Source of the DNA: Mesorhizobium sp. NZP2298
GTDB lineage: Bacteria; Pseudomonadota; Alphaproteobacteria; Rhizobiales; Rhizobiaceae
Reading direction: 5' to 3'
Length of the DNA: 64,000 bases
Assembly (NCBI RefSeq): GCF_013170825.1
Contig: NZ_CP033365.1
Span: forward strand, 2,802,001 to 2,866,000
Positions within the stretch are counted from its first letter, which is position 1; the number at the start of each line of letters is the position of its first letter. The notes under the pieces were generated by a model. It was not told the origin of the DNA. It saw only the letters and a list, made by a program, of their open reading frames with translations, and made no database searches. A program made the position numbers and the translations under genes. Positions 11,113 through 29,940 of this stretch are shown one piece after another.

Positions 11113-14007
11113 ATGACCGAACGGCTGCCGCTTCCCTGGGGATCGCGCCTCGACCGCACCCAGAAAATCCGTTTCGCCTTCGATGGCCGGCCGCTCGAAG
11201 GTTTCGCCGGCGACTGCATTGCCTCGGCCATGGCCGGCAGCGATCGCTGGATCCTGTCGCGCTCCTTCAAGTACCACCGTGCGCGCGGCATCCTCACCAT
11301 GGCCGGGCAGGACGCCAACACGCTGGTGCAACTGCCTGACGAACCGAATGTGCGGGCTGATCTGCGCCCGATCGCCGAAGGGCTGAGGGTCACTGCCCAG
11401 AACGTCAACGGCACCGCCGAACGCGACCGGGGCGCGGTGCTCGACAGGTTGGGCCGCTTCATGCCCGTCGGGTTCTACTACCGCAGCTTCTTTGGCCCCG
11501 GCGCGAAAAGCTGGCTCAAATTCTGGGAGCCGTTGATCCGCAGGTCGGCCGGTCTCGGCAAGGTCGATCTCACTGCCGGTCATGGCCATTATATCAGGGA
11601 AAACCTGCACACCGACGTGCTGGTCGTCGGCGCTGGCCCGGCGGGGCTTTCGGCGGCCATCAAGGCAGCCGAGGCGGGCGCCGAGGTGCTGCTGGTCGAC
11701 TTGAACCCGGAAATCGGCGGCGCCTTGACCTATGCGCGCTTCGGCCTCGAGACGGCGGAGGCCGAGGCGACCTTGCAGGCGTTGCGCGTCGCGGCCGAGA
11801 AAATCGGCAATCTACGGGTGCTGACCGGCGCTACCTGCAATGGGTGGTTCGCCGACAACTGGCTTCCGGTGCTGCAGGGCGAGACGCTCTATCGCGTTCG
11901 TGCCAAGCAGGTCGTGGTGGCCGCGGGATCGCATGAACAGCCCCTGGTGTTTCGCAACAACGACCTGCCCGGCATCCTCCTGTCGTCCGCGGCACAGCGG
12001 CTGATGCGCCACTATGCGGTTCGCCCTGGCCGGCGCGCCGTGGTCTTTGCCGGCAACCGGGATGGATATCTCGCCGCTCACGACCTTCTCGACGCAGGCG
12101 TGTCCTTGGCCGCCGTTCTCGACCCGGCAGCCGATGCGTCCGACAACACCCTCGCGCAACACCTCGTCGAGCGCGGCGTCCGGATCATCCCGAATGTCAC
12201 CGTCACGGAAGCGCTGGGGACCGGGGGCAATCGCCATATAAGAGCCGTCCGCTTCAGCACGCCCGAACATGGCGCGGAGCTGCTGGAGTGCGATCACCTG
12301 GTGGTGGCGGCGGGCTACACGCCGTCTTACCAGCTACCGCTGCATGCCGGCGCGAAGCTGGGATTTGACGAGACCAGTCGGCAATTCGTGCTGAGCAATC
12401 TGCCGGAGGCGTTTCATGTCGCCGGTTCGGCGGCAGGCTGTTTCGAGCTGAACTCGGTGCTGCGCAGCGGCGAGGTCGCGGGCGCGGCGGCGGCGCGGGG
12501 GGCGGGGCATGATGCCGAACTGCCGGCGATCATCCCGGATGCCGGCGCGGCGGCGATGAACCATTTTCAACCGTTGTCCGCGCACGCGAAGGGGCGGGAC
12601 TTCGTGGATTTCGACGAGGATCTGCAGGTCAAGGATATCAAGAACGCCGTCAGCGACGGCTATAGCGAGCTCGAGCTGGTGAAGCGCTATTCCACCGTCG
12701 GCATGGGGCCGTCGCAGGGACGGCATTCCGCGCTGGCAACGGCCAGGATCGTGGCGGCGGAGACGGGCCGCTCAGTGGGCGAGGTGGGTATCACCACGTC
12801 GCGGCCGCCATTCGGCCCGGAAAAACTGGGACTGCTGGCCGGCCCGAACCATGTGCCCTACCGGCATACGGCGATCCACGCCGAACATGTCGCAAGCGGC
12901 GCGAAGCTGACACCTGTCGGTGCGTGGTGGCGACCGCTGCACTACGGTGGAGATGGCGATGCCGGCGGGACGATCTCCGACGAGGTCAGGCTGGTGCGTG
13001 ACAAGGTCGGCATGCTTGACGTTTCGACCCTGGGCAAGCTGGCGATACGAGGGCCGGATGCCGGCGCTTTCCTCGACCGCATCTATACGATGGCGCATGC
13101 CAGGCAGCCGGTGGGGCGCGTGCGCTACTGCCTGATGCTGAACGACATGGGATCGGTCATCGACGACGGGGTGGCTTATAGGCTGTCCGAGACCGAATTC
13201 TACGTGACCGCCACCACCGGCGCCGTTGCCCGCGTCTTCACCGACATGCTGTTCGCGAACACGCAATGGGGCATGCGGGTCGATATCCAGAACGTCACCG
13301 CCGCCTTCGCGGCGATCAATGTCACCGGCCCTTCGGCACGGAAGGTTCTTGAGGCACTCGGCGGGGACATCGATCTCTCCCCGGTGGGCTTCCCCTATCT
13401 CAATGGCCGCAGCGGCGTGATCGGCGGATGCCCGGTCCGGGTCATGCGCATCGGCTTCACCGGCGAACTGAGCTACGAACTTCACGTGCCGCAATCCTTC
13501 GGCGCGGCACTCTGGCGAAAGCTGCTGGAGGTGGGGGCGCCCCACGGGCTGCAACCCTATGGGCTGGAAGCCTCGCGCATCCTGCGTCTGGAAAAGGGGC
13601 ACATCATCATTGGCCAGGATACCGACGCGCTCTCGACCCCCGACGAACTGGGCATGGGTTGGGCGCTGTCGAAGGCCAAGACGCGCTATGTCGGCAAGAC
13701 TGCCATCGAGGCGCGGGGCGGGCTGGGCCTCAAGCGCAAGCTTTGCGGCTTCGAACTGCCCGAGGGACACGGCATCCGGCTGGCGGAATCCTGCCTCGTG
13801 CTGCGCGACGGACGCCCGGTGGGCTTCGTCACCTCGACCTGCTTCTCGCCAACGCTGGGCAAATGGATCGGCCTGGCCTACGCCGACCCGCGTGACGCGG
13901 CGCCGGGATCCAGCCTGCGCATACGCGGCCTGTGCGGCAAGGAACTGCAGGCCAGGGTGGTGCCGACACCGTTCCATGACCCCGAAAACCAGCGGCAGGA
14001 GATGTAG
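11113..14007 (+). CDS. soxA: Sarcosine oxidase subunit alpha
   Basis: 964 residues, normal for SoxA. Order: cysteine-poor ferredoxin-like N-terminal domain (about 15-100), NAD-binding Rossmann region with GAGPAG at 173-178, a SoxA A3-type domain around 500-590, then a GcvT-type folate-binding domain (about 610-960) containing 'GFTGELSYELHVP' and 'LRLEKGHIIIGQDTD'. In the family this domain accepts the formaldehyde equivalent onto tetrahydrofolate. The start overlaps nothing; the ATG follows the soxD stop by one base. Confidence 0.93.
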   Translation: MTERLPLPWGSRLDRTQKIRFAFDGRPLEGFAGDCIASAMAGSDRWILSRSFKYHRARGILTMAGQDANTLVQLPDEPNVRADLRPIAEGLRVTAQNVNGTAERDRGAVLDRLGRFMPVGFYYRSFFGPGAKSWLKFWEPLIRRSAGLGKVDLTAGHGHYIRENLHTDVLVVGAGPAGLSAAIKAAEAGAEVLLVDLNPEIGGALTYARFGLETAEAEATLQALRVAAEKIGNLRVLTGATCNGWFADNWLPVLQGETLYRVRAKQVVVAAGSHEQPLVFRNNDLPGILLSSAAQRLMRHYAVRPGRRAVVFAGNRDGYLAAHDLLDAGVSLAAVLDPAADASDNTLAQHLVERGVRIIPNVTVTEALGTGGNRHIRAVRFSTPEHGAELLECDHLVVAAGYTPSYQLPLHAGAKLGFDETSRQFVLSNLPEAFHVAGSAAGCFELNSVLRSGEVAGAAAARGAGHDAELPAIIPDAGAAAMNHFQPLSAHAKGRDFVDFDEDLQVKDIKNAVSDGYSELELVKRYSTVGMGPSQGRHSALATARIVAAETGRSVGEVGITTSRPPFGPEKLGLLAGPNHVPYRHTAIHAEHVASGAKLTPVGAWWRPLHYGGDGDAGGTISDEVRLVRDKVGMLDVSTLGKLAIRGPDAGAFLDRIYTMAHARQPVGRVRYCLMLNDMGSVIDDGVAYRLSETEFYVTATTGAVARVFTDMLFANTQWGMRVDIQNVTAAFAAINVTGPSARKVLEALGGDIDLSPVGFPYLNGRSGVIGGCPVRVMRIGFTGELSYELHVPQSFGAALWRKLLEVGAPHGLQPYGLEASRILRLEKGHIIIGQDTDALSTPDELGMGWALSKAKTRYVGKTAIEARGGLGLKRKLCGFELPEGHGIRLAESCLVLRDGRPVGFVTSTCFSPTLGKWIGLAYADPRDAAPGSSLRIRGLCGKELQARVVPTPFHDPENQRQEM

Positions 14008-15991: not shown

Positions 15992-16254
15992 CGGAAATTC
16001 CTGATTGGAGGCACTGCCGCTGCCGCGATGCCATAGCAGCACATATCAAGCAACGAAATTTAGAAGATGGACCCCCCCGATTTCCGGCGCGCTTTCCGAC
16101 CCTCGCGGATGCGGTTCGATCGCGAAGGCATACCGGCTGTACTTCAACATCGCGATGACAGACGCCGGCCTCCACCTGACCAGGAAGCCCAACGGCCTCA
16201 CGGCCGCCGAAGAACGGTTCGCATTCGGCGTCAAAAAAGCGAAGCGGGATTGCG

Positions 16255-16300
16255 CCGCAAATGCTCTTGTTGTACGAACGTTCAACAAGAGCATTTGCGG
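16255..16300. promoter_or_regulatory. Long palindromic operator upstream of CocE/ABC operon
   Basis: 46-bp palindrome with perfect 18-bp arms; the inner arms are CTTGTTG and CAACAAG around TACGAACGTT. The right edge is 9 nt before the GTG start of the hydrolase gene. The same core occurs at 28251-28292 in the same orientation to its gene. It resembles BetI-type sites (TTGxACG...CGTxCAA), so the TetR protein at 23851 is the likely binder. The rest of the 318-bp divergent region (15992-16309) shows nothing else clear. Confidence 0.8.
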
Positions 16301-16309
16301 GTACCTGCC

Positions 16310-18319
16310 GTGGTACGAACCGAGTTTCCCTTTGCCGTCGAAACCGTCGATCCGCTGTGGATCGCGCTGGCCGACGGCACCCGCATTGCCGCGACGCTGT
16401 GGCGTCCGCGCACCGAGGGCAAGGTGCCTGTCGTCGTCGAGATGGTGCCTTATCGCCGCCGTGACGGCACCGTGGCGCGCGACATCGACATCCACCCCTG
16501 GCTTGCCGGCCACGGCATCGCCTGTGCCCGGATAGACATTCGCGGCAGCGGCGATTCCGACGGCGACCTGGCCGATGAATATCTGCCGCGTGAACAGGAA
16601 GACGCCTGCGAGATCATCGCGCATCTGGCCGCGCAAGCCTGGTGCAACGGCAATGTCGGCATGACCGGCATTTCCTGGGGCGGCTTCAATGCGCTGCAGG
16701 TCGCGGCGCGCCGGCCGCCGGCCCTGAAGGCGATCATAACCAACTGCGCCACCGACGATCGCTACGCCGACGACATCCACTATATGGGCGGCGCGCTGCT
16801 GACCGAGCAGGAGATGTGGTCGAACTTCATGCTGGTGAAGAAGGCGATGGCGCCCGATCCGCACATCGTCGGCGACGTCTGGCACGCCATGTGGATGAGC
16901 CGCCTTGCAAAGACAAGCTCGCTCTCGGAAGTGTGGCTCGCGCATCAGCGCCGCGATGACTATTGGCGGCAAGGTTCCGTCTGCGAGGATCATTCCGCGA
17001 TCGAATGCGCCGTCATGGCTGTCTGCGGCTGGGAGGACAGCTATTCCAACTTCGTGCCGCGCCTGCTCGAGCATCTGCCGGGGCCGAAGCTCGGCATTGT
17101 CGGGCCGTGGTCGCATGCCTATCCCTGCCGTGGCGCGCCGGGACCGCTGATCGGCTATCTGCAGGAGGCGCTGCGCTGGTGGCGGCATTGGCTGTGCGGC
17201 GAAGACACCGGCATCATGGATGAGCCGCTCTACCGCGTCTGGATCACCGGCGAGGAGAGGCCGCGGCCATTCTATCTCCCCGATCACGCCGGCAACTGGG
17301 CCGCCGAGGACCATTGGCCGTCGCCGCGCATCGAGCGCCGCACGCTGCATCTGAACGCCGCCGGGCTGGGCAGCGAACCCGCGCCGGGAGCGACGCTTTC
17401 CGTGCGCTCACCGGCGACCGCCGGCCGCGACTGCGGCCGCTGGGGCGGCTATGGCGGCGCCTGCCCGGACATGCCCATCGACCAGCGCCGCGAGGATGGG
17501 ATGGCGCTGTGCTTCGACACGCGACCGCTGGATGATGATCTGACATTGCTTGGCGCGCCGGAACTGGACCTGCTCGTCAGCGTCGACCAGCCGCATGTCA
17601 ATCTCGCCGCGCGGCTGTGCGACGTCTATCCCGACGGCACCTCGGCGCTGATGACCTATGGCGTGCTCAATCTCAGCCACCGCGACAGCCATGAGCATCC
17701 GACACCCTGTCCGGTCGGAATGCCGTTTCGCGTCAAGCTGAAGCTCAATGATTTCGCCCGTACCGTGCCCAAGGGCCACCGTATCCGGCTGGCGCTGGCC
17801 AACCAGCACTGGCCGATCCTGTGGCCGCAGCCGAAATTGTCGACGCTGTCGGTATCGAGCGGCGACAGCACCATGATGCTTCCGGTGCGCCCGTCGTCGC
17901 CGCGCGATCGCGACGTCCGTTTCGAGCCTGCCGAAACCGCGCCGCCGGTGCCCACCACGACGCTCGACGAGGGCTTCGACCGCCGCGTCGTCACCGACGA
18001 TGTCGGCTCGGGCGTGCAGACCATTGCGCTGACCTCCGATCACGGGCGCCGGCGCTATGACGACCGCGCCATCACCGTGTCTTCCGCAAACAGCGACACG
18101 ATGAGCATCCGCAGTGACGATCCGCTGTCGGCAAAACTCGTCACCGAATATCGCTGGGCGATCGCCAGCGGCGATGCCGACACCGAGGCGATCGCGGTGA
18201 CCGAGCTGACATCGGACGAAACCCATTTCAACCTGAGTTGGCGGCTCGAGGCCCGAGAACGGGGCACGCTCGTCCACAGCGCCTCGGCAACCCAGCGCAT
18301 CAGGCGCGATTTCGCCTGA
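16310..18319 (+). CDS. CocE/NonD family hydrolase (S15 / X-Pro dipeptidyl-peptidase-like)
   Basis: 669-residue alpha/beta hydrolase of the peptidase S15 type, cytoplasmic (no signal). Nucleophile Ser122 in 'GISWGG', likely acid in 'GWEDSY', likely His in 'GPWSHAY', then a C-terminal jelly-roll (about 330-560). GTG at 16310 is chosen because homology-like sequence begins there and no nearby ATG exists; no clear Shine-Dalgarno is present. First gene before a dipeptide-type importer, so it probably cleaves an imported amide, ester or prolyl substrate. Confidence 0.85.
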   Translation: MVRTEFPFAVETVDPLWIALADGTRIAATLWRPRTEGKVPVVVEMVPYRRRDGTVARDIDIHPWLAGHGIACARIDIRGSGDSDGDLADEYLPREQEDACEIIAHLAAQAWCNGNVGMTGISWGGFNALQVAARRPPALKAIITNCATDDRYADDIHYMGGALLTEQEMWSNFMLVKKAMAPDPHIVGDVWHAMWMSRLAKTSSLSEVWLAHQRRDDYWRQGSVCEDHSAIECAVMAVCGWEDSYSNFVPRLLEHLPGPKLGIVGPWSHAYPCRGAPGPLIGYLQEALRWWRHWLCGEDTGIMDEPLYRVWITGEERPRPFYLPDHAGNWAAEDHWPSPRIERRTLHLNAAGLGSEPAPGATLSVRSPATAGRDCGRWGGYGGACPDMPIDQRREDGMALCFDTRPLDDDLTLLGAPELDLLVSVDQPHVNLAARLCDVYPDGTSALMTYGVLNLSHRDSHEHPTPCPVGMPFRVKLKLNDFARTVPKGHRIRLALANQHWPILWPQPKLSTLSVSSGDSTMMLPVRPSSPRDRDVRFEPAETAPPVPTTTLDEGFDRRVVTDDVGSGVQTIALTSDHGRRRYDDRAITVSSANSDTMSIRSDDPLSAKLVTEYRWAIASGDADTEAIAVTELTSDETHFNLSWRLEARERGTLVHSASATQRIRRDFA

Positions 18320-18335
18320 GAAAGAGAGGGAGGCC

Positions 18336-19286
18336 ATGCTCGCATATGCAGTGAAGCGCATCGGTCTCGGCCTCCTGATCCTCGTCCTCGTCATGGTCGC
18401 GATGTACGCGGCCGTCTTCCTGGTGCCGGGCGATCCGGCAACCGTGGCGCTCGGTCCGCGCGCCACGCCGGAACTGAAGCGGCTGCTGATCGAGCGCATG
18501 GGACTCGACCAGCCGGTCTGGTGGCAGATCATCGAATTCTTCCGCAACGCGCTGACCGGCAATCTCGGCTACGATGTCTGGTCGAACCGGCCCGTCTCCA
18601 CCCTGGTGCTGGAGGCTCTGCCGAACACGCTGATCCTCGGCCTGACAGCGCTGGCCGTCGCGCTCCTGATCGGCGTGCCGCTCGGCTGCCTGTCGGTGAT
18701 GCGGCGCGGCACGGCGGCCGATGCCGTGATCGGCGTGCTCTCGGTCGGCGTCATCGCGGTGCCGTCCTTCGTCGTCGCCATCTATTCGCTGCTGGTCTTT
18801 GCCGTCACGCTGCGCTGGCTGCCGGCCATCGGCGCCGGCGAGACCGGCGACTTCATCAGCCAGGCCAAGGCGCTGGTCATGCCGGCCGCCGCCATCGCGC
18901 TCGGCTGGATCGGCTACATCGCCCGCATGGTGCGTGCCTCGATGATGGAGGTGATGGGCGAGCCGCACATCCGCACCGCGCGCTCGTTTGGTTTGCCGGA
19001 ATGGAAGATCGTCTCCAAATACGCGCTGCGCATCGCCATCATCCCGACCATCTCGCTGGTCGCAGTCGGCCTCGGCAGTATCCTGTCCAGCGCGGTCTTC
19101 GTCGAGGCGGTGTTCGCCCGGCCAGGCATCGGCAAGCTCATCACCGACGCCGTCAACACCCGCAATTATCCGGTCGTCATGGGCACGGTGCTGATCATGA
19201 CCGCCATCTATGTCTCCATCACCATCGCCGCCGATCTCTTGATCGCGCGGCTCGATCCGAGGGTGCGCGATGTCTTCCGTGGCTGA
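18336..19286 (+). CDS. Dipeptide-type ABC transporter permease 1 (DppB-like)
   Basis: 316-residue inner-membrane permease. It opens with the family's 'LAYAVKRIGLGLLILVLVMV' helix and 'FLVPGDPA', and has the EAA coupling loop near 'RTARSFGLPEWKIVSKYALR'. Strong AGAGGGAGG ribosome site. Follows the hydrolase by 16 nt and overlaps the next permease by 17 nt. Ligand unknown; Dpp/Opp systems also carry modified amino acids and betaine-like peptides. Confidence 0.92.
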   Translation: MLAYAVKRIGLGLLILVLVMVAMYAAVFLVPGDPATVALGPRATPELKRLLIERMGLDQPVWWQIIEFFRNALTGNLGYDVWSNRPVSTLVLEALPNTLILGLTALAVALLIGVPLGCLSVMRRGTAADAVIGVLSVGVIAVPSFVVAIYSLLVFAVTLRWLPAIGAGETGDFISQAKALVMPAAAIALGWIGYIARMVRASMMEVMGEPHIRTARSFGLPEWKIVSKYALRIAIIPTISLVAVGLGSILSSAVFVEAVFARPGIGKLITDAVNTRNYPVVMGTVLIMTAIYVSITIAADLLIARLDPRVRDVFRG

Positions 19287-20157
19287 TGCCTCGTTGTCCA
19301 CGCCTGATCGACAAGTGTTTGTCATGCTGCGCACGCTGCTCGCCGATCCGTTCACCTGCGTGGCGCTGATCCTGGTCACCGGCTTCCTCGTCACCGCGAT
19401 CTTCGCGCCGTGGCTGGCGCCTTATTCGCCGGTCAAGATCGACGTGCTGCACAAGCTGCAGCCGCCATCGGCGGAACACTGGTTCGGGACCGATCATCTC
19501 GGCCGCGATCTCCTGTCGCGGGTCATCTACGGCGCGCGTACCGCACTCACCATCGCCATGGTGTCGGTGGCCATCGCCGGCGCCATTGGCCTGATGCTCG
19601 GCCTGATCGCCGGCTACGGCCCGCGTTGGCTCGACGCCATCCTGGTGCTGAGCTTCGACAGCCTGAACTCGCTGCCGATGATCATGTTCGCGCTCGCCAT
19701 CATCACCGTGCTCGGCGCCGGCACCGGCACGCTGATCATCGTCATCGCCGCGACGTCGTTTCCGAGCTATGCCAGGCTTATCCGGGCGCAGACGCTGGCG
19801 CTGAAAAACAGCGACTACATCCTCGCCGAACGGCTGATCGATGCCGGTGCCGCGCGCATCATCTTCATCCATCTGCTGCCCAATGTCGTCGGCCCGCTGA
19901 TCATCCTTCTGTCGATGGATATTCCGGTCGTCATCATGGTCGAGGCCGGCTTGAGTTTCCTCGGCCTTGGCGTGCGTCCGCCGACACCATCCTGGGGCTC
20001 GATCCTCTACGATGGCTACACCAGCATTCGCTCGGCACCCTTCATGGTCATCTTCGGTGGCCTGCCGCTGGTGCTGGCCACACTTGGCTTCACCTTCCTC
20101 GGCGAAGGCCTGCGCGACTATCTCGATCCGCGCCTGCAGTTGCGGAGACCGGCATGA
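19270..20157 (+). CDS. Dipeptide-type ABC transporter permease 2 (DppC-like)
   Basis: 295-residue partner permease with the DppC hallmark 'HWFGTDHLGRDLLSRVIYGARTAL' (read here as 'WFGTDHLGRDLLSR') and EAA loop 'ERLIDAGAARIIFIHLLPNV'. The start overlaps the previous gene by 17 nt and the stop overlaps the next start as ATGA. Confidence 0.92.
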   Translation: MSSVADASLSTPDRQVFVMLRTLLADPFTCVALILVTGFLVTAIFAPWLAPYSPVKIDVLHKLQPPSAEHWFGTDHLGRDLLSRVIYGARTALTIAMVSVAIAGAIGLMLGLIAGYGPRWLDAILVLSFDSLNSLPMIMFALAIITVLGAGTGTLIIVIAATSFPSYARLIRAQTLALKNSDYILAERLIDAGAARIIFIHLLPNVVGPLIILLSMDIPVVIMVEAGLSFLGLGVRPPTPSWGSILYDGYTSIRSAPFMVIFGGLPLVLATLGFTFLGEGLRDYLDPRLQLRRPA

Positions 20158-21119
20158 CCGGCTCGCTCGCCGCCAGCGATCTCAGCGTCCGCTACGAGAC
20201 GCCGCATGGCGCGGTGCACGCGTTGCGCCATGTCGACATCGAGGCGCATCCGGGCGAAGTGATCGGCATCGTCGGCGAGAGCGGCTGCGGCAAGTCAACG
20301 CTGGTCACCGCGCTCGCCAATCTCCTGCCGGCCAATGCCCGCATCGACGGCTCGATCTCCTACAACGGCGTCGACCTGGCCAAGCTCGACGCGTACCACC
20401 AGCGCCTGCTGCGCGGCGACGAGATCGCGCTGGTCAGCCAGGATCCGATGTCGGCGTTCAACCCGGTGCTGACCATCGGCGACCAGCTCGTCGACTTCCA
20501 GCACCACCGCAAGGACCTTGGCAGGGCGCAGAAGCGGGCGCGTATCGCCGCCATGCTTGGCCGCGTCGGCATCGCCGATGCGGAGCGGCGCATGCAGAGC
20601 TATCCGCATGAACTGTCGGGCGGCATGCGCCAGCGCGTCGCCATCGCCGCTGCCTTGCTGACCGATCCCGGCCTGCTCATCGCCGACGAGCCGACGACGG
20701 CGCTCGACGTCACCATGGAAGCGCAGATCATCCACCTGCTGCGCGAGCTGAGGCGCGACTATAACGGCATCATCATCGTCGTCTCGCATCATCTCGGCGT
20801 CATCGCCGAGCTCTGCGACCGCGTCTATGTCATGTATGCCGGCGAGGTGGTCGAGGGCGGCGAGGTCGACGCGATCTTCCACGATGCCAGGCATCCCTAT
20901 ACGCAAGCGCTGCTCGCCTGCGATCCCGCCCGCTTTCACGAGCGGCTGGACAGGCTGCCGACCATTCCGGGCTCGCTGCCGAACCTCACTCAGCCACCGT
21001 CCGGATGCGTCTACGCACCGCGCTGCGACCGTGCCTTCGCACCGTGCACCACCGTCGCGCCACCGCTGGTGAAACTCGCCGCTTCCCATGTCGCGCGCTG
21101 CCATGCGGTGACACCATGA
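20154..21119 (+). CDS. Dipeptide-type ABC transporter ATP-binding protein 1 (DppD-like)
   Basis: 321 residues. Walker [10 protein letters not shown] (41-49), signature 'LSGGMRQRV', Walker B '[13 protein letters not shown]'. The C-terminal OppD/F extension carries '[15 protein letters not shown]', the cysteine-rich segment of these ATPases (an iron-sulfur ligand set in some members). ATGA overlap at both ends gives tight coupling. Confidence 0.92.
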
Positions 21120-22144
21120 GCCCGCTGCTCGCCGTCGAAGACCTTTCCGTGAGCTTTGTGCGCGGCGGCTTGCTCAACCGGCTGGTCAATCCGTTTCCGC
21201 TGCCGGGCTTCAACGTCATCGATGGCGTGACGTTGTCGCTGATGCCGGGCGAGACGCTCGGGCTCGTCGGCGAATCCGGCTCCGGCAAGACGACACTGGC
21301 CCGCACCATTCTGGGGCTCATCCGGGCAGCCGCCGGCCGCATCGTCTTCGAGGGCAGGGAGGTGCGGACGCCGGCCGATTTCCGCGCCATGCGCCGGCGC
21401 TCGGCGATGATGTTCCAGGACCCTGTCGCCTCGCTCAGCCCGCGCCTGCGCATCGGCACGCTGCTCACCGAACCGCAGATCATCCAGGGGTTGCCGATGC
21501 CGGACCGCCGCGCCGCGGCAAAAGCGCTGCTGGCGCTTGTCGGTTTGCCCGCCTCCTTCGTCGACCGCTTTCCGCATGAGCTGTCAGGCGGGCAGGCGCG
21601 CCGCGTCGGCGTTGCGCGCGCCCTGGCGATGAAGCCGCATCTGCTGCTCGCCGACGAGCCGACCGCCGGCCTCGATGTCTCGGTGCAAGGCGATGTGCTG
21701 AACCTGATCGGCGAACTCAAGCGCGAGCTCGGTTTCGCCGCCATGATCGTCACCCACAACCTGGCCATGATCCGCCACGTCAGCGACCGATTGGCCATCA
21801 TGTATCTCGGCCGGCTGGTCGAGACCGGACCGACGCAGGCCGTGTTTTCCGCGCCGATGCATCCCTATACCGCGACGCTGATCCAGTCCGAGCCGATACC
21901 CGATCCACGCCGGCGCAGCCATAACCCTGCCGTCACCGGCGAGATCCCGAGCGTGTTCCGGCGGCCTTTGGGCTGCGAGTTCCACACGCGTTGCCCGATC
22001 GCACGCGAGCGCTGCAGGACCGAGGCGCCGGTCTACCGGCCGATGGGCGCAGATCGCATGGTGCGCTGCCATTTCCCGCTGCAGACAGGCGGGCAAGAAC
22101 GGGAAGCCTTCTCACGCGCTTCCATCAACCAAAGGGGAAACTGA
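21116..22144 (+). CDS. Dipeptide-type ABC transporter ATP-binding protein 2 (DppF-like)
   Basis: 342 residues. Walker A GESGSGKTT (52-60), signature 'LSGGQARRVGVARAL', Walker B 'LLLADEPTAGLDVS', and C-terminal 'GCEFHTRCPIARERC' cysteine segment. An insert around residues 17-35 ('GGLLNRLVNPFPLPGF') is typical for the second ATPase. Starts by a 4-nt overlap with the first ATPase gene. Confidence 0.92.
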   Translation: MSPLLAVEDLSVSFVRGGLLNRLVNPFPLPGFNVIDGVTLSLMPGETLGLVGESGSGKTTLARTILGLIRAAAGRIVFEGREVRTPADFRAMRRRSAMMFQDPVASLSPRLRIGTLLTEPQIIQGLPMPDRRAAAKALLALVGLPASFVDRFPHELSGGQARRVGVARALAMKPHLLLADEPTAGLDVSVQGDVLNLIGELKRELGFAAMIVTHNLAMIRHVSDRLAIMYLGRLVETGPTQAVFSAPMHPYTATLIQSEPIPDPRRRSHNPAVTGEIPSVFRRPLGCEFHTRCPIARERCRTEAPVYRPMGADRMVRCHFPLQTGGQEREAFSRASINQRGN

Positions 22145-22145
22145 G

Positions 22146-23708
22146 ATGTCAGAATGGACCATGGACAGACGTGCATTCCTGAAGGCGGCCGGCGTGCTGG
22201 GCGCCGGCGTGGCGATGAAGCCGGGCTTCGCCTGGTCGGCCGCGGGCGACAAGCTGCGCATCCGCATGGAAGGCGATCTGCAGTGCCTCGATCCCGCCTT
22301 CATGAATGGCGGCATCGAGGATGTCATGATGCGCGGCATCTATGTCTCGCTCAACCATTTCGGCGACATCAGGAAAGGCTCGCCCTGGTCGCCGTGGGGC
22401 GCGGAAAAGCTTGAGCAGAAAGACCCCAAGACCATCGCCTTCACCCTGATCGACGGGCTGAAATGGTCTGGTGGCTTCGGCGCGGTGACGGCCGACGACG
22501 TGAAGTTCTCGTTCGAGCGCATCGCGGACAAGGCGCTCGCATCGCCCTGGGCCTATCAATTCGAGAAGCTCGATCGCGTCGAAGTCGTCGATGCCCGCAA
22601 TGGCATCATCCATCTGAAGGAACCTTACCAGCCGATCTTCGTCACCAGCCTGCCTTACTATGGCGGCCACATCATCAGCCGCGCCGGCACCGAGAAGGCT
22701 GGCGGCAAATTCACCACGCAGCCGCCGGCGACATGCGGGCCCTATCTCTTCTCCGACTGGCAGCAGAAGCAGAAGGTGACGCTGACCGCCAACCCGGACT
22801 GGCCGGGCCCGAAGCCGGATTTCTCAAAGGTCGAGATCTATGTCGTGTCGGACGATCAGGCAGCGCAACTCGCCTATGAAGCCGATGCCTTCGACTACAC
22901 CAAGATCGCCATTTCGGCGACCAAGGCTGTCAAGGAGAAGCCGCCAGCGGACACAAACCTGATCGAGGCGCAGTCGACCCGTTATGTCTGGCTGACCATC
23001 AACATGCTGAGCCCGCGGCTCAAGGATCCGAAGGTGCGGCAGGCGGTGCAATATGGCGTCGATGTCGGGCAGATCCTCACCGGTGTCTATGACGATCTGA
23101 CCAAGCGCTCCACCGGTGTCGTCCAGCCCGGTACCAAATTCGCGCGGGCCTCGAATCTGATCGCGGCGCCCGACTATGAGAAGTCGGCCGCACTCCTCAA
23201 AGAGGCTGGCGTCGGCGACCTGTCACTGACCCTGACGGTGATGAACGATTCCATCCGCACCGCGACCGCGCAGATCATCCAGGCCAGCCTTGAACAGGCC
23301 GGCATCAAGGTCGAGATCCAGCCCTATGACGAGGCCGCCTTCTGGGGCGTCGGCGACAAGACGCAGGGTGACGGCTACAAGAACATCGACCTGGCGCTGA
23401 TGGACTTCGCCGGCGGCATCGATCCGTCGGAAAACCTGGTCTGGTTCCGCCCCGACCAGATCGGCGCCTACAACTGGTCGGGCTTCGACAGTCCCGAATT
23501 CGAGACCAGCTACCAGCAATTGGTGGCCGAAAGCGACGAGGCCAAGCGCATCGCCTTGTCGAACCGGATGGAGGATTTGATGGAGCAGTCCGGCGGCTTC
23601 GTCTTCATCTGCCATCAGCCGCTGGTCGCCATCCACAAGACGGCGTTCGACCCGGTCATCTATCCCGACGGTCACCCCAATCCGGTGCTGTTCAAGAAGA
23701 AGGCGTGA
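22146..23708 (+). CDS. Extracellular solute-binding protein family 5, Tat-exported
   Basis: 520-residue periplasmic binding protein for the dipeptide-type importer. N-terminus 'DRRAFLKAAGVLGAGVAM' is a twin-arginine signal, so it is folded before export. Family-5 features include 'LKWSGGFGAVTADDVKFSFERI'-like segment near 100 and 'LMEQSGGFVFICHQPLV' at the end. Start ATG 22146; an in-frame ATG at 22161 is an alternative right before the RR. Last transport gene of the operon; a RIME repeat follows. Confidence 0.92.
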   Translation: MSEWTMDRRAFLKAAGVLGAGVAMKPGFAWSAAGDKLRIRMEGDLQCLDPAFMNGGIEDVMMRGIYVSLNHFGDIRKGSPWSPWGAEKLEQKDPKTIAFTLIDGLKWSGGFGAVTADDVKFSFERIADKALASPWAYQFEKLDRVEVVDARNGIIHLKEPYQPIFVTSLPYYGGHIISRAGTEKAGGKFTTQPPATCGPYLFSDWQQKQKVTLTANPDWPGPKPDFSKVEIYVVSDDQAAQLAYEADAFDYTKIAISATKAVKEKPPADTNLIEAQSTRYVWLTINMLSPRLKDPKVRQAVQYGVDVGQILTGVYDDLTKRSTGVVQPGTKFARASNLIAAPDYEKSAALLKEAGVGDLSLTLTVMNDSIRTATAQIIQASLEQAGIKVEIQPYDEAAFWGVGDKTQGDGYKNIDLALMDFAGGIDPSENLVWFRPDQIGAYNWSGFDSPEFETSYQQLVAESDEAKRIALSNRMEDLMEQSGGFVFICHQPLVAIHKTAFDPVIYPDGHPNPVLFKKKA

Positions 23709-23714
23709 ACCGAA

Positions 23715-23814
23715 CCATGATCCCGAAAAGTGGGAACCGGTTTTCGGATAAGATCATGGTCAAACAAGGAGATAGAGCCCCATCCCGATGTCATCGGGAT
23801 GGAACAGGCTCTAT
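23715..23814. repeat. RIME-type double palindrome 1
   Basis: First palindrome 23715-23759: arms CCATGATC/GATCATGG and inner CCGAAAA/TTTTCGG. Second 23772-23814: arms ATAGAGCC/GGCTCTAT and inner CATCCCGATG/CATCGGGATG. Two-palindrome, about 100-bp layout matches Rhizobium-type intergenic mosaic elements. It could also act as a transcription barrier after the importer operon. Confidence 0.75.
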
Positions 23815-23850
23815 GTGGACAGGATAGGCATTATCGATTAGCTGGAGTCC

Positions 23851-24543
23851 ATGACGGAAGCCCAACCAGAAGATGCAAAAAGGAAGCGCGGCGCGAAAAA
23901 GGCTCCGCCGCGCTTCAGCCGCGAACAGGCTGACGTGCGCCGCTCCATGCTGATCGAGGCGGCGACGCGCTGCCTGTCCGTCGGCGGCATCGGCGCCTTC
24001 ACCATCGACCGCATCTGCAAGGAGGCCGGTGTTTCGCGCGGCCTCATCAACCATCATTTTGAAAGCCTCGACGGGCTGCTGGTCGAGGTCTACAAATCCT
24101 CGCTCTACGCCAGCGTCAACAACCAGATCGCCGAGGCCAAGCGCCGTCGTGCGGAGACTTCCGATTGGTCGCCGCAGGCCGCACTTGCCGCCCTGGTGCA
24201 CTCCAACTTCTCGCCGGAATATTTCAGCCGCGAGAACCTGCTGATCTGGCTGTCGCTGTGGGGCGAGATCGCCGTCAACCCGCGGCTCAAAGCGGCGCAT
24301 CGCGAACTCTACGATGCCTATCGCGCGGAACTCGCGGAGGACATCGCCGCTGTCGCCATACCGCGCGGCAGGCAAGTCGATGCGCCGGCGCTGGCGCGCA
24401 ATTTCATCGCCCTGGTCGATGGGCTCTGGCTCGAATGGTGCCTCGATGAAAGTGTGGTGACGCCGCAGGCGGCGGAGGCGGCTGGGTTCGAAATGCTCGA
24501 AGCGCAGGTGGGGCCCTTGCGGGGCGTTTTAGTTCAGCGGTGA
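23851..24543 (+). CDS. TetR-family regulator, BetI-like
   Basis: 230 residues. HTH at about 35-80 ('AFTIDRICKEAGVSRGLINHHF'; helix-turn-helix core 'RICKEAGVSRGLINHHF'), then a BetI-type C-terminal domain with 'EYFSRENLLIWLSLWGE'. BetI proteins sense choline or betaine-like compounds, which suits the neighbouring demethylase genes. ATG has GGAG 4 nt upstream. Its end overlaps the end of the convergent MttB-family gene by 15 bp. Proposed to bind the matching palindromes at 16255-16300 and 28251-28292; this is inference. Confidence 0.87.
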   Translation: MTEAQPEDAKRKRGAKKAPPRFSREQADVRRSMLIEAATRCLSVGGIGAFTIDRICKEAGVSRGLINHHFESLDGLLVEVYKSSLYASVNNQIAEAKRRRAETSDWSPQAALAALVHSNFSPEYFSRENLLIWLSLWGEIAVNPRLKAAHRELYDAYRAELAEDIAAVAIPRGRQVDAPALARNFIALVDGLWLEWCLDESVVTPQAAEAAGFEMLEAQVGPLRGVLVQR

Positions 24544-26067
24544 ACCACCTTCGCGTTTCCGCCGCTCCATATAGTCGCGCAGCGCCTCGTCGATGCCGGG
24601 ATCGATCGGCGGCTGTTCGTATTCGGCGACCATGCGCTTCCACACGACATTGGCCCGCTCGCGCGCCGTGACCTGGCCGCGTTCGACCCAAGTATCGTAA
24701 TTGTCCCAGTTGGACACCAGCGGTGAATAGAAGGCGCGCTCGTAGCGTTGCATGGTGTGCGCCGCGCCGAAGAAATGTCCGGCCGGGCCGACCTCGCGCA
24801 CCGCCTCCAGCGCCAGCGTGTCGATGTCGACCACGGGCGGATCGAAATAGGCCGACATCATCTGCAGCATCTCGGCATCGATGACCAGTTTCTCGAACGA
24901 TGCGGTGAGCCCGCCGCCGAGCCAGCCGGCGGCATGCAGCACCAGGTTGGCGCCGCCCATCAGGCAGCCCCACAGGGACATGGCGCTTTCATAAGCGGCC
25001 TGCGCGTCGACCGAATTGGCGGCTGTGACATTGCTGGAGCGGAACGGCACGCCGATCAGCCGGCAGAGCTGCCCGGTGATCTGCGCGGCCTGTGTGTATT
25101 CGGGCGTCCCGAAGGCCGGCGCGCCGGTCTTCATGTCGACATTGGAGGTGAAGCCGCCATACATGACAGGCACGCCCGGACGCACGATCTGGGTCAGCAC
25201 GATACCGGCCAGCGCCTCGGCATGCTGCTGCGACAGCGCGCCCGCAAGCGTCACCGGGCTCATCGCGCCGGCCAGCGTGAACGGCGTGATGACATTGACC
25301 TGGCCATGCTCGGCCAGCGCGATCAGGCCTTCGGCCATAGGCTCGTCGAGCTGCAGCGGCGAGTTGGTGTTGATGATGCCGGTGAAGACCGGCATCTCCC
25401 GGGCAAGGTTTTCGCGCGTCGTGCCGAGCGAAATCGCCACCATCTCCAGCGCGTCGATTGCGCGCCCCTGACCAAGGGTTTGCGGCTGCCAGTTCTTGTC
25501 GAGCAAGGTGATCTCGGCATAGTAGAGGTCGAGATGACGCGTGTTCTGGTGCAGGTCGAGCGGCTCGAACGGGCCGCCGCCTTCCTGGTGCAGCACGTTG
25601 AACGACTGGATGAGTTTCAGATAGTCGCACATCTCGGCATAGGTGCCGGGACGGCGGCCGCGATCATTGTCCATGACATAGGCCGGGCCGCCGACCGACG
25701 ACAGGATGCAGTGCTTTCCGCCGACCTTGACGTTCTTCGCGGGATTGCGGGCGCGCAGCTCGAAGGACGATGGCGCCATGGCGACGCGCTCCATCACCAT
25801 GGCGCGGTCGAAGCGCACCCGCATGGCGCTTTCGTCGACATCGCAGCCGGCGGCGCGATAAAACTGCCGCGCCCGCGGCTGCAGCACGCGCATGCCGATC
25901 TCCTCCAGGATGGTCAGGCCCATTTCATGGATCGTCCGCACCTGATCGTCGGACAGGATCTCGATCGGCGCATAGGGCCGCGTCAGCTGCTTCCACGGAC
26001 GCTGCTCGATGCCGCCGATCTCGCGCTGCGGGCGGCCGGGTCTGCGACGTGCGGCGGTGCGTTCCAT
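24529..26067 (-). CDS. Trimethylamine methyltransferase family protein (MttB superfamily, non-pyrrolysine)
   Basis: 512-residue TIM-barrel methyltransferase of the MttB superfamily. There is no in-frame amber codon, so it is the non-pyrrolysine kind, whose studied members demethylate quaternary amines such as glycine betaine, proline betaine or carnitine, passing methyl to a corrinoid protein. 'SSVGGPAYVMDNDRG', 'HQNTRHLDLYYAEITLLDKN' and 'YGGFTSNVDMKTGAPAFGTP' are family-like stretches. No corrinoid protein gene is in the window. Second gene of the operon headed by the TMADH-like gene. Confidence 0.85.
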   Translation of the reverse strand: MERTAARRRPGRPQREIGGIEQRPWKQLTRPYAPIEILSDDQVRTIHEMGLTILEEIGMRVLQPRARQFYRAAGCDVDESAMRVRFDRAMVMERVAMAPSSFELRARNPAKNVKVGGKHCILSSVGGPAYVMDNDRGRRPGTYAEMCDYLKLIQSFNVLHQEGGGPFEPLDLHQNTRHLDLYYAEITLLDKNWQPQTLGQGRAIDALEMVAISLGTTRENLAREMPVFTGIINTNSPLQLDEPMAEGLIALAEHGQVNVITPFTLAGAMSPVTLAGALSQQHAEALAGIVLTQIVRPGVPVMYGGFTSNVDMKTGAPAFGTPEYTQAAQITGQLCRLIGVPFRSSNVTAANSVDAQAAYESAMSLWGCLMGGANLVLHAAGWLGGGLTASFEKLVIDAEMLQMMSAYFDPPVVDIDTLALEAVREVGPAGHFFGAAHTMQRYERAFYSPLVSNWDNYDTWVERGQVTARERANVVWKRMVAEYEQPPIDPGIDEALRDYMERRKREGGSPLN

Positions 26068-26092
26068 GGCCTTCTAGACCTCCCTGTTTGAC

Positions 26093-26136
26093 GCAATTCC
26101 TGTGGGAAAACCGCTTCACACTTTTCCTGGAATTGC
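26093..26136. repeat. RIME-type palindrome 2 (half element) inside operon
   Basis: Arms GCAATTCC (26093-26100) and GGAATTGC (26129-26136) with inner GGAAAA/TTTTCC. It lies between the two genes of the leftward operon and ends 2 nt from the stop codon of the TMADH-like gene. Confidence 0.7.
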
Positions 26137-26138
26137 TC

Positions 26139-28241
26139 CTATTCGGCTGCCGTGCGCATATCGAAATCCGCCACCGCGTCGACGATCGGCGTGTCGCGTC
26201 TATAAGGCTGCCAGCGAACCTTTGTACCGATCTCTCGAGCCAGCTTGTGACCGCTGTGAACGGCGTGGGCGATGGCGCCCGGCGCGAGCGTGTCGCCGAT
26301 ACGATCGACGCTGCGGATGCCGACGGCCGTAAGCGCGTCCGCCCGTTCCGTCAGCGTCTCGAACAGCTCGTTGCGCGGCAAGCGCAGCCCGACGATCAGC
26401 ACCGAGCGGCAGGCGATGCGGCTCTCCTCGCCGGTGAACAGATGCGCCAGCGTCGCCGTCTCGCCATCGAAGGATTTCAACAGATGCAAGGTCGTCACCG
26501 GCACGTTGCGGCGCGCCAGCGCACGATGCACCAGCGGCAGCTCGTTGGTCATGATCGTCCAGGCGGACGCCTGGCCGGCCGGGGTGACGTAGCTGACCGG
26601 AACGCCCTGCGCCGCCAGATGCTCGGTCAGCACGCCGCCCATGTAATAATTGTCGAAATCGAAGACCAAGGTTGGTCCTTGCGGAAGGCGGCCGGCGGCG
26701 ATGTCATCGGGTGTGAACACTTCCGCGTGGTCGAGCCGGCCGACCGGTATCTCCAGGGAGGAGTAGAGCATGTCGGTCCAGCGTGCGCCGGTCGCAAGCA
26801 CGACCCGGTCCGGCGCCAGGTCGACGATTTCGTCCGCGCCCAAGACACTCTCGGGATAGAGCGAGACATTGTTCATCTCGCCGAGCCGTCCGAGCCGGTA
26901 ATCGACGACGCGGTTCCAGGCCGACAGGCCGGGCAGTGTCTTCTCGAAGGTCAGCCGCCCGCCGAACGTACGGCTGCTGTCGGCGAGTGTCACCTCATGG
27001 CCACGCCGGCCAAGCGTCAGCGCGCATTCGAGCCCGGCCGGTCCGCCGCCGACAACCAGGATGCGCTCCGCTCTGTCGGCACGCTCGACACGCTCGGGGT
27101 GCCAGCCGCGCCGCCATTCCTCGCCGGCGGTCGGGTTCTGCGTGCAGCGCACCGGCACGCCGTCATGCCAACTCGAAATGCAGATGTTGCAGCCGATGCA
27201 TTCGCGGATTTCGGCCTCGCGGCCCTCGCGGATCTTGGCCGGCAGGAAGGGGTCGGCGATCGAGGGCCGCGCGCCGCCGATGAAGTCGAGCACGCCGCGC
27301 CTGATCTGCGAGACCATGGTGTCGGGAGAGGTGAAGCGGCCGACGCCGACCACCGGCTTTTTCGTCAGCGACTTGACGAAATCGATCACCGGCTCATGGC
27401 TGCCTTCACCGGTGAAGCGCGACGCCGAACAGTCGGTCGGGCTGGAATCCATCTTGACGTCGAACAGGTCGGGCAGGTCGGCCAAAAGTTCGATCAGCTC
27501 ATGCGCTTCCGAAGGCTGGTTGCGGCCGGGCCGGCCGCGCAGTTCCTCTAGGCTGACGCGCAGCGCGACGCCGCAATCCTTGCCGACGGCATCCTTGGTG
27601 ACCTCGATCATCTCGCGCACGAAGCGCACGCGGTTCTCGATCGGTCCGCCGTACTCGTCGGTGCGATGGTTGTACTCCGGCAGCAGGAACTCGTAGCCGA
27701 GATAGCCCATGCCGGCATAGACGTAGACCACGTCGAAGCCGGCCGTGCGCGCCTTGCGCGCCGCCTCGGCCTGGCATCGCAACACCTCCTTCATGTCGGC
27801 CTTGTCCATGGTCTTCGGCCGCAGATTGCCCATGAAGCCGACATGCGTGGCCATCCAGGGAATTCCCGATGGCGAGAGCGGCGGCAGCCGGCTCGTCCTG
27901 TTCATGACGGACGCGCCGCCATGCCAGAGTTCCACGCCGGCAAGCGAGCCATGGCGGTGGACGGCCTCCGTCATCAGCGCATGGGCACGGATATCATTGT
28001 CGTCCCACAAAGTGGCGAAAGGCAGCGGGGCGTCGTCCGAACTGGGATCGATCGAACAGGCGCCGGTGCAGATCACGCCCCATCCGCCCTCGGCCTTGGC
28101 TTCGCGAAAGGCCGCACGCACCCTTGGAAGGGCGTTGGTCATGCCGCTGGCATGCGGCACCTGGTAGAAGCGGTTCGGCGCGGTGACCGGCCCGATCCGC
28201 ATCGGCTCGAACAGGATTTCGTAGCGGGGATTGCAGGTCAT
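26139..28241 (-). CDS. TMADH-like NADH:flavin oxidoreductase / N-demethylase
   Basis: 700 residues, closely laid out as trimethylamine dehydrogenase: FMN TIM barrel (1-370), [4Fe-4S] motif 'CIGCNICISSWHDG' followed by RC 12 residues on, then an FAD/ADP-type domain ('ILVVGGGPAGLECALTLGRRG'). In TMADH Cys30 binds FMN covalently; here 'RFYQVPHASGM' has Ala31. TMADH Tyr60 is Ala61 and the His of the Tyr-His-Asp triad is Met. So the cofactor is non-covalent and the substrate differs; N-methylproline or another betaine product is a good candidate. ATG 28241 lies 9 nt from the palindrome. Confidence 0.88.
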   Translation of the reverse strand: MTCNPRYEILFEPMRIGPVTAPNRFYQVPHASGMTNALPRVRAAFREAKAEGGWGVICTGACSIDPSSDDAPLPFATLWDDNDIRAHALMTEAVHRHGSLAGVELWHGGASVMNRTSRLPPLSPSGIPWMATHVGFMGNLRPKTMDKADMKEVLRCQAEAARKARTAGFDVVYVYAGMGYLGYEFLLPEYNHRTDEYGGPIENRVRFVREMIEVTKDAVGKDCGVALRVSLEELRGRPGRNQPSEAHELIELLADLPDLFDVKMDSSPTDCSASRFTGEGSHEPVIDFVKSLTKKPVVGVGRFTSPDTMVSQIRRGVLDFIGGARPSIADPFLPAKIREGREAEIRECIGCNICISSWHDGVPVRCTQNPTAGEEWRRGWHPERVERADRAERILVVGGGPAGLECALTLGRRGHEVTLADSSRTFGGRLTFEKTLPGLSAWNRVVDYRLGRLGEMNNVSLYPESVLGADEIVDLAPDRVVLATGARWTDMLYSSLEIPVGRLDHAEVFTPDDIAAGRLPQGPTLVFDFDNYYMGGVLTEHLAAQGVPVSYVTPAGQASAWTIMTNELPLVHRALARRNVPVTTLHLLKSFDGETATLAHLFTGEESRIACRSVLIVGLRLPRNELFETLTERADALTAVGIRSVDRIGDTLAPGAIAHAVHSGHKLAREIGTKVRWQPYRRDTPIVDAVADFDMRTAAE

Positions 28242-28250
28242 CGGGACTCG

Positions 28251-28292
28251 GCGAATATGCTTGTTGAACGATCGTACAACAAGCATATTCGC
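28251..28292. promoter_or_regulatory. Long palindromic operator upstream of the demethylase operon
   Basis: 42-bp palindrome with perfect 16-bp arms (outer GCGAATATG / CATATTCGC, inner CTTGTTG / CAACAAG); only one central pair fails. Read in the gene's direction the centre is TACGATCGTT, one base different from the centre of the copy at 16255-16300. Its edge is 9 nt from the ATG, the same distance as in the other copy. Confidence 0.8.
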
Positions 28293-28409
28293 CGGCATTG
28301 CAGAACGCAATGGCCCAAAGCAACGGCGCTGGGGATCGGTTCGAAAGCAGGGCAAATGCGACGGTGTTGGGACGGGCCGACAGCATGGGTTCACAACACC
28401 ATCACATTT

Positions 28410-28878: not shown

Positions 28879-29940
28879 ATGGAACCCTTCGTCTATAACG
28901 GCCAGCCGGCCCGCGTCATTTTCGGATCCGGCACCATCCAGCAGCTGCCGGCGGAACTGGACCGGCTGGGCCTGAAGCGGGTCGCGGTGCTGGCAACGCC
29001 GCCGCAGGAGCCGGAAGCGCGACGGCTCGTCGAACAGCTCGGCGGCCGCGCCGCCGGCGTCTACGCGCGGGCGACGATGCATACGCCGGTGGAGGTCACC
29101 GAGGACGCGCTGCGTGTCATTCTGGACCTCAAGGCCGACGGGCTCGTCGCCGTGGGCGGTGGCTCGACCACGGGCCTTGCCAAGGCCATCGCACTGCGGA
29201 CCGACCTGCCGCAGATCGTGGTGCCGACCACCTATGCCGGCTCGGAAATGACGCCGATCCTTGGTGAGACCAGGGACGGAGTGAAGGTCACCCAGTCGAG
29301 CCCCAAAGTGCTGCCCGAAATCGTGATCTACGACATCGACCTCACTCTGTCGCTGCCCGCGGCCATGTCCGGCACCAGCGGGCTCAACGCGATCGCGCAT
29401 GCGGTCGAAGCGCTTTATGCACGCGAGCGCAACCCGGTCATCAGCCTGATGGCGACAGAGGCGATCGGCGCGCTTGCCGCGGCCCTGCCGACAATAGCCG
29501 TCGAGCCCGACAACCGGGAAGCGCGTTCAAAGGCGCTTTACGGCGCCTGGCTTTGCGGCATCTGCCTGGGCTCGGTGGGCATGGCGCTGCACCACAAGCT
29601 TTGCCATACGCTCGGCGGCAGCTTCGACCTGCCGCATGCCGAAACGCATGCGATCGTGCTTCCGCACGCGCTTGCCTACAACGCTCCGGCGGTGCCGGAC
29701 GTGATGCAGAGGCTGCGCGACGTGCTCGGCACGGACGACCCGGCCATGGCGCTCTACGATCTTGCCGACAGGGTCGGCGCACGGCGAGCGCTCGCGGATA
29801 TCGGCATGCCTGAAAATGGCATCGAGCTTGCGACGGACAGGGCGCTGTCCAACCCCTACTGGAACCCGCGCCCCCTTGAGCGCGAGGCGCTGAAGGGGTT
29901 GATCGCCCGGGCTTATGCAGGCGAACGGCCGCGCTCCTGA
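28879..29940 (+). CDS. Maleylacetate reductase (iron-containing alcohol dehydrogenase family)
   Basis: 353 residues; NAD(P)H-dependent reduction of maleylacetate to 3-oxoadipate. 'VAVGGGSTTGLAKAIAL' is the dinucleotide-binding turn; metal/active-site histidines lie in 'SGLNAIAHAVEAL', 'HHKLCHTLGG' and 'PHAETHAIVLPH'. 'VVPTTYAGSEMTPILG' is typical of maleylacetate reductases. It acts right after the dioxygenase encoded next. Confidence 0.9.
   Translation: MEPFVYNGQPARVIFGSGTIQQLPAELDRLGLKRVAVLATPPQEPEARRLVEQLGGRAAGVYARATMHTPVEVTEDALRVILDLKADGLVAVGGGSTTGLAKAIALRTDLPQIVVPTTYAGSEMTPILGETRDGVKVTQSSPKVLPEIVIYDIDLTLSLPAAMSGTSGLNAIAHAVEALYARERNPVISLMATEAIGALAAALPTIAVEPDNREARSKALYGAWLCGICLGSVGMALHHKLCHTLGGSFDLPHAETHAIVLPHALAYNAPAVPDVMQRLRDVLGTDDPAMALYDLADRVGARRALADIGMPENGIELATDRALSNPYWNPRPLEREALKGLIARAYAGERPRS

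Follow-up and report, generated by a model that had tools for sequence, protein, structure and literature searches.

A palindromic core in front of two convergent operons of Mesorhizobium sp. NZP2298 is probably the operator of the enclosed TetR-family regulator

Organization of the locus

The window analysed here is a 64,000-nucleotide stretch of the Mesorhizobium sp. NZP2298 genome (C1:2802001-2866000 of a single contig of 7,336,816 bases), in which two matching palindromes enclose two convergent gene sets, one of them ending with the gene of a TetR-type regulator. The left palindrome spans 46 nt (16255..16300) and consists of the core TTGTTGTACGAACGTTCAACAA (16267..16288, plus strand) and perfect 12-bp outer arms. 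The right one, also 46 nt long (28249..28294), is built in the same way around the core TTGTTGTACGATCGTTCAACAA (28261..28282, minus strand). Read in the direction of the genes, both palindromes contain the 24-mer CTTGTTGTACGAWCGTTCAACAAG, which bears out the claim of an earlier note on this DNA that two matching palindromes precede the two gene sets. Sites resembling the shared 24-mer at ≤3 mismatches were absent from 100 shuffles of the window. Across the 7.34 Mb of the genome, the 22-bp core TTGTTGTACGAWCGTTCAACAA was matched at two places, which remain the only ones at ≤3 mismatches, so the genome search proposed in that note returned no unrelated copies.

Two measurements needed correction on one side each. 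A length of 46 nt had been given for the left palindrome and is kept, while the 42 nt given for the right one become 46 nt when the maximal perfect outer arms are counted. Likewise, the stated spacing of 9 nt to a start codon holds for the left palindrome, where GTG lies at 16310; for the right one, with ATG at 28241, it is 7 nt, counting the full palindrome. The distance between palindrome and start codon varies and is no constant of the system: from the end of the core it measures 19-25 nt at 35 left sites of the genus and 10-20 nt at 39 of its 40 right sites (one was unplaced); at 12 OYE-side sites measured in more distant loci it is 4-27 nt. Across the genus, the mean column identity within the core is 0.994 (left) and 0.973 (right) versus 0.65-0.80 in the 12 flanking bases on either side.

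The inward-running gene layout described earlier was recovered from the open reading frames (ORFs) and Pfam matches. Rightward from the left palindrome (plus strand) lie genes for: (i) a CocE/NonD family hydrolase (16310..18319, GTG start; PF02129 and PF08530; TIGR00976 at 211.2 bits, cut-off 66.3), (ii, iii) DppB-like and DppC-like permeases of a dipeptide/oligopeptide-type ABC importer (18336..19286, PF00528; 19270..20157, PF00528 and PF12911), (iv) a DppD-like ABC ATPase (20154..21119; PF00005 and PF08352 in the enclosing ORF), given as a 321-aa frame with its start placed from the overlap with DppC, (v) a DppF-like ABC ATPase (21005..22144; PF00005 and PF08352), for which the listed ORF start is given and the true start may be further in, (vi) a family 5 solute-binding protein, SBP (22146..23708, PF00496), and (vii) the TetR regulator with a BetI-type C-terminal domain (23851..24543; PF00440 and PF13977), which is proposed to act as a repressor at both operators and thereby on the operon that encodes it. 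Leftward from the right palindrome (minus strand) lie the genes of a TMADH/histamine-dehydrogenase-like flavoprotein, here called OYE (26139..28241, ATG at 28241; PF00724 and PF07992; PDB relatives 6l6j, 3k30, 6de6 and 1djn), and of an MttB superfamily methyltransferase (24529..26067; PF06253; frame without an internal stop; PDB relatives 4yyc and 9yce, a glycine betaine methyltransferase). The 3' ends of the TetR and MttB frames overlap (24529-24543). The 142-nt gap between the SBP and tetR genes contains a dispersed repeat, GATCCCGAAAAGTGGGAACCGGTTTTCGG (23719-23747), which is found 24 times in the genome when ≤3 mismatches are allowed.

Co-occurrence of the core and the TetR gene

The distribution of the core was compared with that of the enclosed TetR in 146 Mesorhizobium genomes, all of which entered the co-occurrence counts, with E ≤ 1e-40 as the threshold for a TetR ortholog. 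An ortholog was found in 40 genomes. The core at ≤2 mismatches was present in 39 genomes, all of them among these 40, and in 0 of the 106 genomes without the ortholog. In the 40th TetR-bearing genome (G073), the core next to these genes has 3 mismatches. Fisher's exact test gives p = 8.5e-35 for this association, a value that is not corrected for relatedness and is only a rough guide, because the genomes are related.

The right site (≤3 mismatches) was present in 40/40 of the TetR-bearing genomes and the left site in 35/40; these 35 genomes carry both cores together with the left half of the locus (CocE-Dpp-SBP). Four others (G016, G133, G136 and G138) keep TetR with MttB and OYE (in G016 across two contigs) and have the right core, while at the locus they lack both the CocE-Dpp-SBP genes, which were not searched for elsewhere in these genomes, and the left core; in each the core occurs at a single place. 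In G073, the fifth genome without the left site, the locus is cut by a contig end. In three genomes (G059, G104 and G137; loci L073, L086 and L098) OYE is only 53% identical and the right core is still present.

A family sample of 394 genomes, genus members included, contained TetR in 7 genomes, of which 6 have the core at ≤3 mismatches and 5 at ≤2. Core-like sites, e.g. ATGTTGAATGAACGTTCAACAA, are also seen in family genomes without this TetR (G273, G413, G156 and G320); such sites are perhaps operators of another, BetI-like regulator.

Distant relatives and the TetR tree

A scan of named genomes for the TetR was evaluated for the best 80 of 322 loci, a set from which records very near the source genome may be absent; within it, the nearest rows belong to Mesorhizobium loti CJ3sym and M. 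comanense. The core, with 1-3 mismatches, was found near TetR in Labrys (L146, L147), Rhodospirillales (L148), Aestuariivirga (L149) and two further loci (L151 and L153). It is present with 1-4 mismatches in all eight loci L156-L163, whose TetR proteins are 36-42% identical to the one studied here; seven of these contigs are labelled Gammaproteobacteria and L156 only Proteobacteria. As judged from these sequence matches, the predicted site-regulator pair recurs in distantly related proteobacteria.

A TetR tree of 86 rows was built from the 80 named loci, the window and five paralogs from the same genome, and was rooted at midpoint; the core label of a row is the best match anywhere in its locus, promoter-proximal or otherwise. 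Each of the 44 rows whose locus has a core at ≤3 mismatches falls within one 51-row clade (support 97/94), and the BetI-like paralogs of the same genome lie outside it on long branches, their placement being unsure. Its sister clade consists mostly of rows from the Burkholderia group. An exact variant palindrome, CTGTTGAACNNTGGTTCAACAG, is found about 200 bases or less upstream of the TetR match in 10 of the 30 loci L164-L193 (L174, L175, L176, L179, L182, L183, L185, L186, L188 and L189), and these Burkholderia-group relatives are a possible case of co-evolved specificity.

A BetI-like regulator distinct from BetI

The enclosed protein has a TetR_N helix-turn-helix domain (PF00440, 46.0 bits, cut-off 24), and it was described in the earlier note as a BetI-like regulator lying inside the set. 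The likeness is confirmed, but the protein is not a true BetI: it misses both NCBIfam cut-offs (TIGR03384, 93.9 versus 201.3 bits; NF001978, 92.4 versus 118 bits) and its putative operator is longer and differently spaced. The genome encodes two proteins that do exceed the TIGR03384 BetI cut-off; one of these shares 29% identity with the enclosed TetR. Its own neighbours are CocE, the Dpp-type importer, MttB and OYE, with no betA, betB, betC or betT in the set.

For comparison, the BetI1 palindrome of Ruegeria pomeroyi DSS-3, which has a two-BetI system, is given as ATTGACG*CGTCAAT (PMC12442346). The two systems resemble each other in the combination of TetR_N with PF13977, in palindromes placed over predicted promoter elements, and in genes of the quaternary-amine type. 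The half-sites TTG(T)ACG of the core and of the BetI1 box are alike, whereas length and spacing differ, a 22-bp core (TTGTTGTACGAWCGTTCAACAA) standing against the 14-bp ATTGACG*CGTCAAT.

Promoter-like elements at the sites

The surroundings of both cores contain elements at conserved positions. On the left, TTGCGC (16250..16255, plus strand) is a putative -35 element, 17 bp upstream of TACGAA (16273-16278, plus strand), a putative -10 element that lies inside the core and is present in 34/35 left sites of the genus. The distance from the start of TTGC to the core is 17 nt in 35/35 genus left sites, in 4/4 other left sites and in 8/8 of the L156-L163 sites. On the right, TTGCGT (28305..28310, minus strand) and TATGCT (28282..28287, minus strand) are the candidate -35 and -10 elements, the latter abutting the operator and found in the same place in 33/40 genus right sites. 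Here TTGC stands at offset -28 in 34/40 and at -27 in 4/40 sites, i.e. 11 or 10 nt further up than on the left. The main arrangements thus have a 17-bp spacer between TTGCNN and TACGAW or TATGCT, and most simply this would be read as a promoter of the -35/-10 type, with the operator overlapping the -10 box or directly following it.

Regulatory model and alternative explanations

Taken as a whole, the comparative data make it very probable that the core is the operator of the enclosed TetR, which would repress both convergent operons, its own gene included, from operators lying over the promoters. The proposal of the earlier note that the genes form one regulon under this protein is thus supported, namely by the co-occurrence within the genus, by the fact that the genomes without the left half at the locus also have no left site, and by the pairing that extends into Gammaproteobacteria. 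A TetR dimer (or dimers) would occupy the 22-24 bp palindromic cores, one over the promoter of each operon, and keep both the left operon (CocE-DppBCDF-SBP-tetR, with tetR presumably co-transcribed) and the right operon (OYE-MttB) switched off. The inducer would be a methylated-amine substrate or a breakdown product of it, which releases TetR; the importer, hydrolase, methyltransferase and flavin demethylase would therefore be expressed together, and the regulator would feed back on its own expression.

Several observations weigh against this model. The core label requires six changes on the TetR tree and not one, because among the other seven rows of the 51-row clade two have a 4-mismatch core and five have none (L136, L150, L152, L154 and L155). 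For L136 a core sits on another contig (L102), L152 ends within OYE, and L150, L154 and L155 have no OYE in the examined stretch. In the family sample a core-like match was found in 6 of the 387 genomes without a close TetR ortholog at ≤3 mismatches (1/387 at ≤2), and one of the seven TetR-bearing genomes (G356) has only a 4-mismatch core. Two loci with TetR, MttB and the 53% identical OYE (L108 and L110) have no right core at ≤4 mismatches. A scan with the Escherichia coli consensus found no promoter at either site, the left candidate TACGAA is a poor -10 element without the usual final T, and among nine other distant sites TTGC stands at exactly -17 in two, with TTG at -18 in four more; because of these three points the promoter assignment is non-uniform and rests on conserved position. 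Finally, related genomes are non-independent observations.

The best surviving alternative, though an unlikely one, is that TetR binds the cores but acts as an activator, or as an activator or repressor depending on its ligand. It would agree with the poor scores of both regions as E. coli-type promoters and with the presence of TTGC on one side only, its shift of 10-11 nt at the right sites of the genus being about one helical turn, as might be needed for a protein-protein contact on one face of the helix. However, the cores overlap or abut the putative -10 elements, where repressors commonly sit, and most characterised TetR proteins are repressors.

Rather less probable is an action at the level of RNA, which had been raised as an alternative in the earlier note: the palindromes would form mRNA hairpins in both operon leaders and control translation or stability, the symmetry of the DNA being a by-product. 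The predicted RNA folds are indeed strong (-44.9 and -36.9 kcal/mol for 101 nt; z-scores of -5.4 and -6.0), and the outer arms retain a signal of pairing. This signal was measured at genus sites only, after identical core-plus-arm sequences had been dropped (35 to 27 sites on the left, 40 to 38 on the right); arms with insertions or deletions were left unrealigned, which lowers their pairing, and eight right sites with an altered centre were retained, three inverted (G010, G046 and G121) and five with AACGAT (G039, G056, G102, G117 and G127). Pairing of an arm with its own partner averaged 8.41 of 12 positions on the left versus 6.26 with shuffled partners, and 8.34 versus 7.04 on the right, with 0 of 2000 shuffles as high in either case. 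Mispairs were also counted per site where 6 or more of 11 positions pair (19 sites on the left, 33 on the right); G-T exceeded A-C by 6:2 (left) and 29:10 (right), counts in which shared ancestry enters repeatedly. Against a conserved stem, ten perfect outer pairs were found in only 8 of the 27 left and 12 of the 38 right distinct sites, many sites having 0-2. When changes were placed on a tree built from MttB and OYE, single ones that break a pair numbered 35 (left) and 52 (right), versus 6 and 7 double changes on the same branch that keep the pairing; among the breaks, G-T and A-C numbered 26 and 17 (binomial p 0.22). The spacing from core to start codon ranges from 4 to 27 nt, transcripts from the putative promoters would begin within the palindrome, and no match was found in the window with Rfam at gathering scores. 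The mRNA hairpin is thus unsupported, because the outer arms are often unpaired in relatives.

It is also improbable, by a further small step, that the cores are bound by another regulator, e.g. a true BetI acting on choline, with the enclosed TetR being incidental. The likeness of the half-sites to the BetI1 palindrome (PMC12442346) and the two proteins of the genome above the BetI cut-off would suit such an explanation. Yet in the fetched flanks of the two betI loci (1.5 kb on each side) no core was found within 6 mismatches, i.e. none better than 7, and the core tracks the enclosed TetR over the 146 genomes and through the TetR clade.

That the palindromes are a mobile or repetitive extragenic palindromic (REP)-type repeat inserted twice is hardly credible and was rejected, since, although a dispersed repeat does occur in the locus (in the SBP-tetR gap, with its 24 genome places), the core has only two copies in the genome, one before each operon, as in 35/35 genus genomes with both halves, and the outer arms of the two copies differ.

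Under the operator model, soil and symbiotic bacteria would have a dedicated regulator and a precise operator for a gene set in which an MttB-type methyltransferase is combined with a TMADH-like flavoprotein, a pairing that extends to gammaproteobacterial metagenome bins. As site and regulator are highly specific, a simple reporter screen could be used to look for the inducer, and hence for the methylated-amine substrate. In the open-licence literature no description of this regulator was found, the motif strings matching only papers unrelated by their titles and the starts of their abstracts.

Variation of the outer arms

The 12-bp outer arms vary widely and seem dispensable for recognition. 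Whole arm families take one another's place, those on the left being GCAAATGCTC, TTAAATCGCC and TTAAATCACC. In the three genomes with an inverted right-core centre (G010, G046 and G121; loci L068, L092 and L088), AACGATCGTA stands in place of TACGATCGTT, as expected from an inversion within a hairpin. Free decay with occasional hairpin-templated renewal fits the arms better than a conserved RNA stem, which is no proof of it. We consider, as a tentative possibility with the odds against it, that the outer arms are rewritten by hairpin-templated copying: a hairpin seeded by the core would let one arm be copied onto the other, and the palindrome would grow, decay and be rebuilt with new sequence in different lineages, the arms having little or no regulatory role. 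If this were true, template-switch mutation in nature would have left a visible record in a repressor operator. The locus also offers an example of a strong palindrome that resembles an RNA hairpin but that comparison leads one to interpret as a DNA operator whose core is short.

Enzymes and putative pathway

The methyltransferase matches PF06253 over its full length (644.5 bits, residues 7-508 of 512). Identity as a pyrrolysine-containing trimethylamine methyltransferase was rejected, since TIGR02369 scores 282.5 of the 525 bits needed and the frame is open, with no internal stop and thus without the in-frame amber codon of that enzyme. The genome encodes nine MTTB proteins (L195-L203) versus one B12-binding_2 match, which adjoins a different MTTB gene; the MttB of the locus may therefore transfer the methyl group to a shared corrinoid protein, by analogy with MtgBCD. 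The latter is presented in PMC12478193 as a system of aerobic, cobalamin-dependent betaine demethylation in aerobic bacteria. Compared with it, the present case is similar in having a PF06253 methyltransferase in an aerobic-type alphaproteobacterium, whose B12-binding_2 protein is encoded beside another MTTB gene, and different in that MttB occurs with a TMADH-like flavoprotein, a dipeptide-type importer, a CocE hydrolase and its own TetR, and with no corrinoid protein in the locus.

The flavoprotein shares with TMADH and histamine dehydrogenase (1djn, 3k30, 6de6) the order of domains and the iron-sulfur cysteine pattern CIGCNIC...C. Its residues were compared with those which we take to be functional in TMADH, namely the flavin-linking Cys30 and the aromatic bowl of Tyr60, Trp264 and Trp355. 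The Cys position was read from the two histamine dehydrogenases, as the aligned TMADH chain was 1djq, presumably the C30A mutant with Ala at position 30. Where both histamine dehydrogenases carry Cys the flavoprotein has Ala, as does the closest solved chain, 6l6j. In place of Tyr60 it also has Ala, Trp264 falls in a gap and His172 is replaced by Met, while a Trp aligned with Trp355 is the sole bowl position kept. Identity as a true TMADH was rejected on these grounds (the Cys30 link is absent and only Trp355 of the bowl is kept); the substrate pocket therefore differs, and the protein is TMADH-like without being TMADH. The substrate could plausibly be betaine-like, perhaps taken up in the form of an ester, amide or peptide conjugate and then cut by the hydrolase.

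An mttB gene of M. alhagi rises in expression under salt (PMC4302635); the knockout showed no phenotype in salt, the function is described there as unknown, and no TetR regulator is mentioned in the accessible part of that paper.

Two genes flanking the locus complete the picture. A sarcosine oxidase alpha-type gene (11113-14007), 2.2 kb upstream of the left palindrome, is a methylated-amine gene without a palindrome in front. An iron-containing alcohol dehydrogenase gene (28879-29940) lies just beyond the right palindrome, and a 56% identical relative of it is located upstream of CocE in locus L111.

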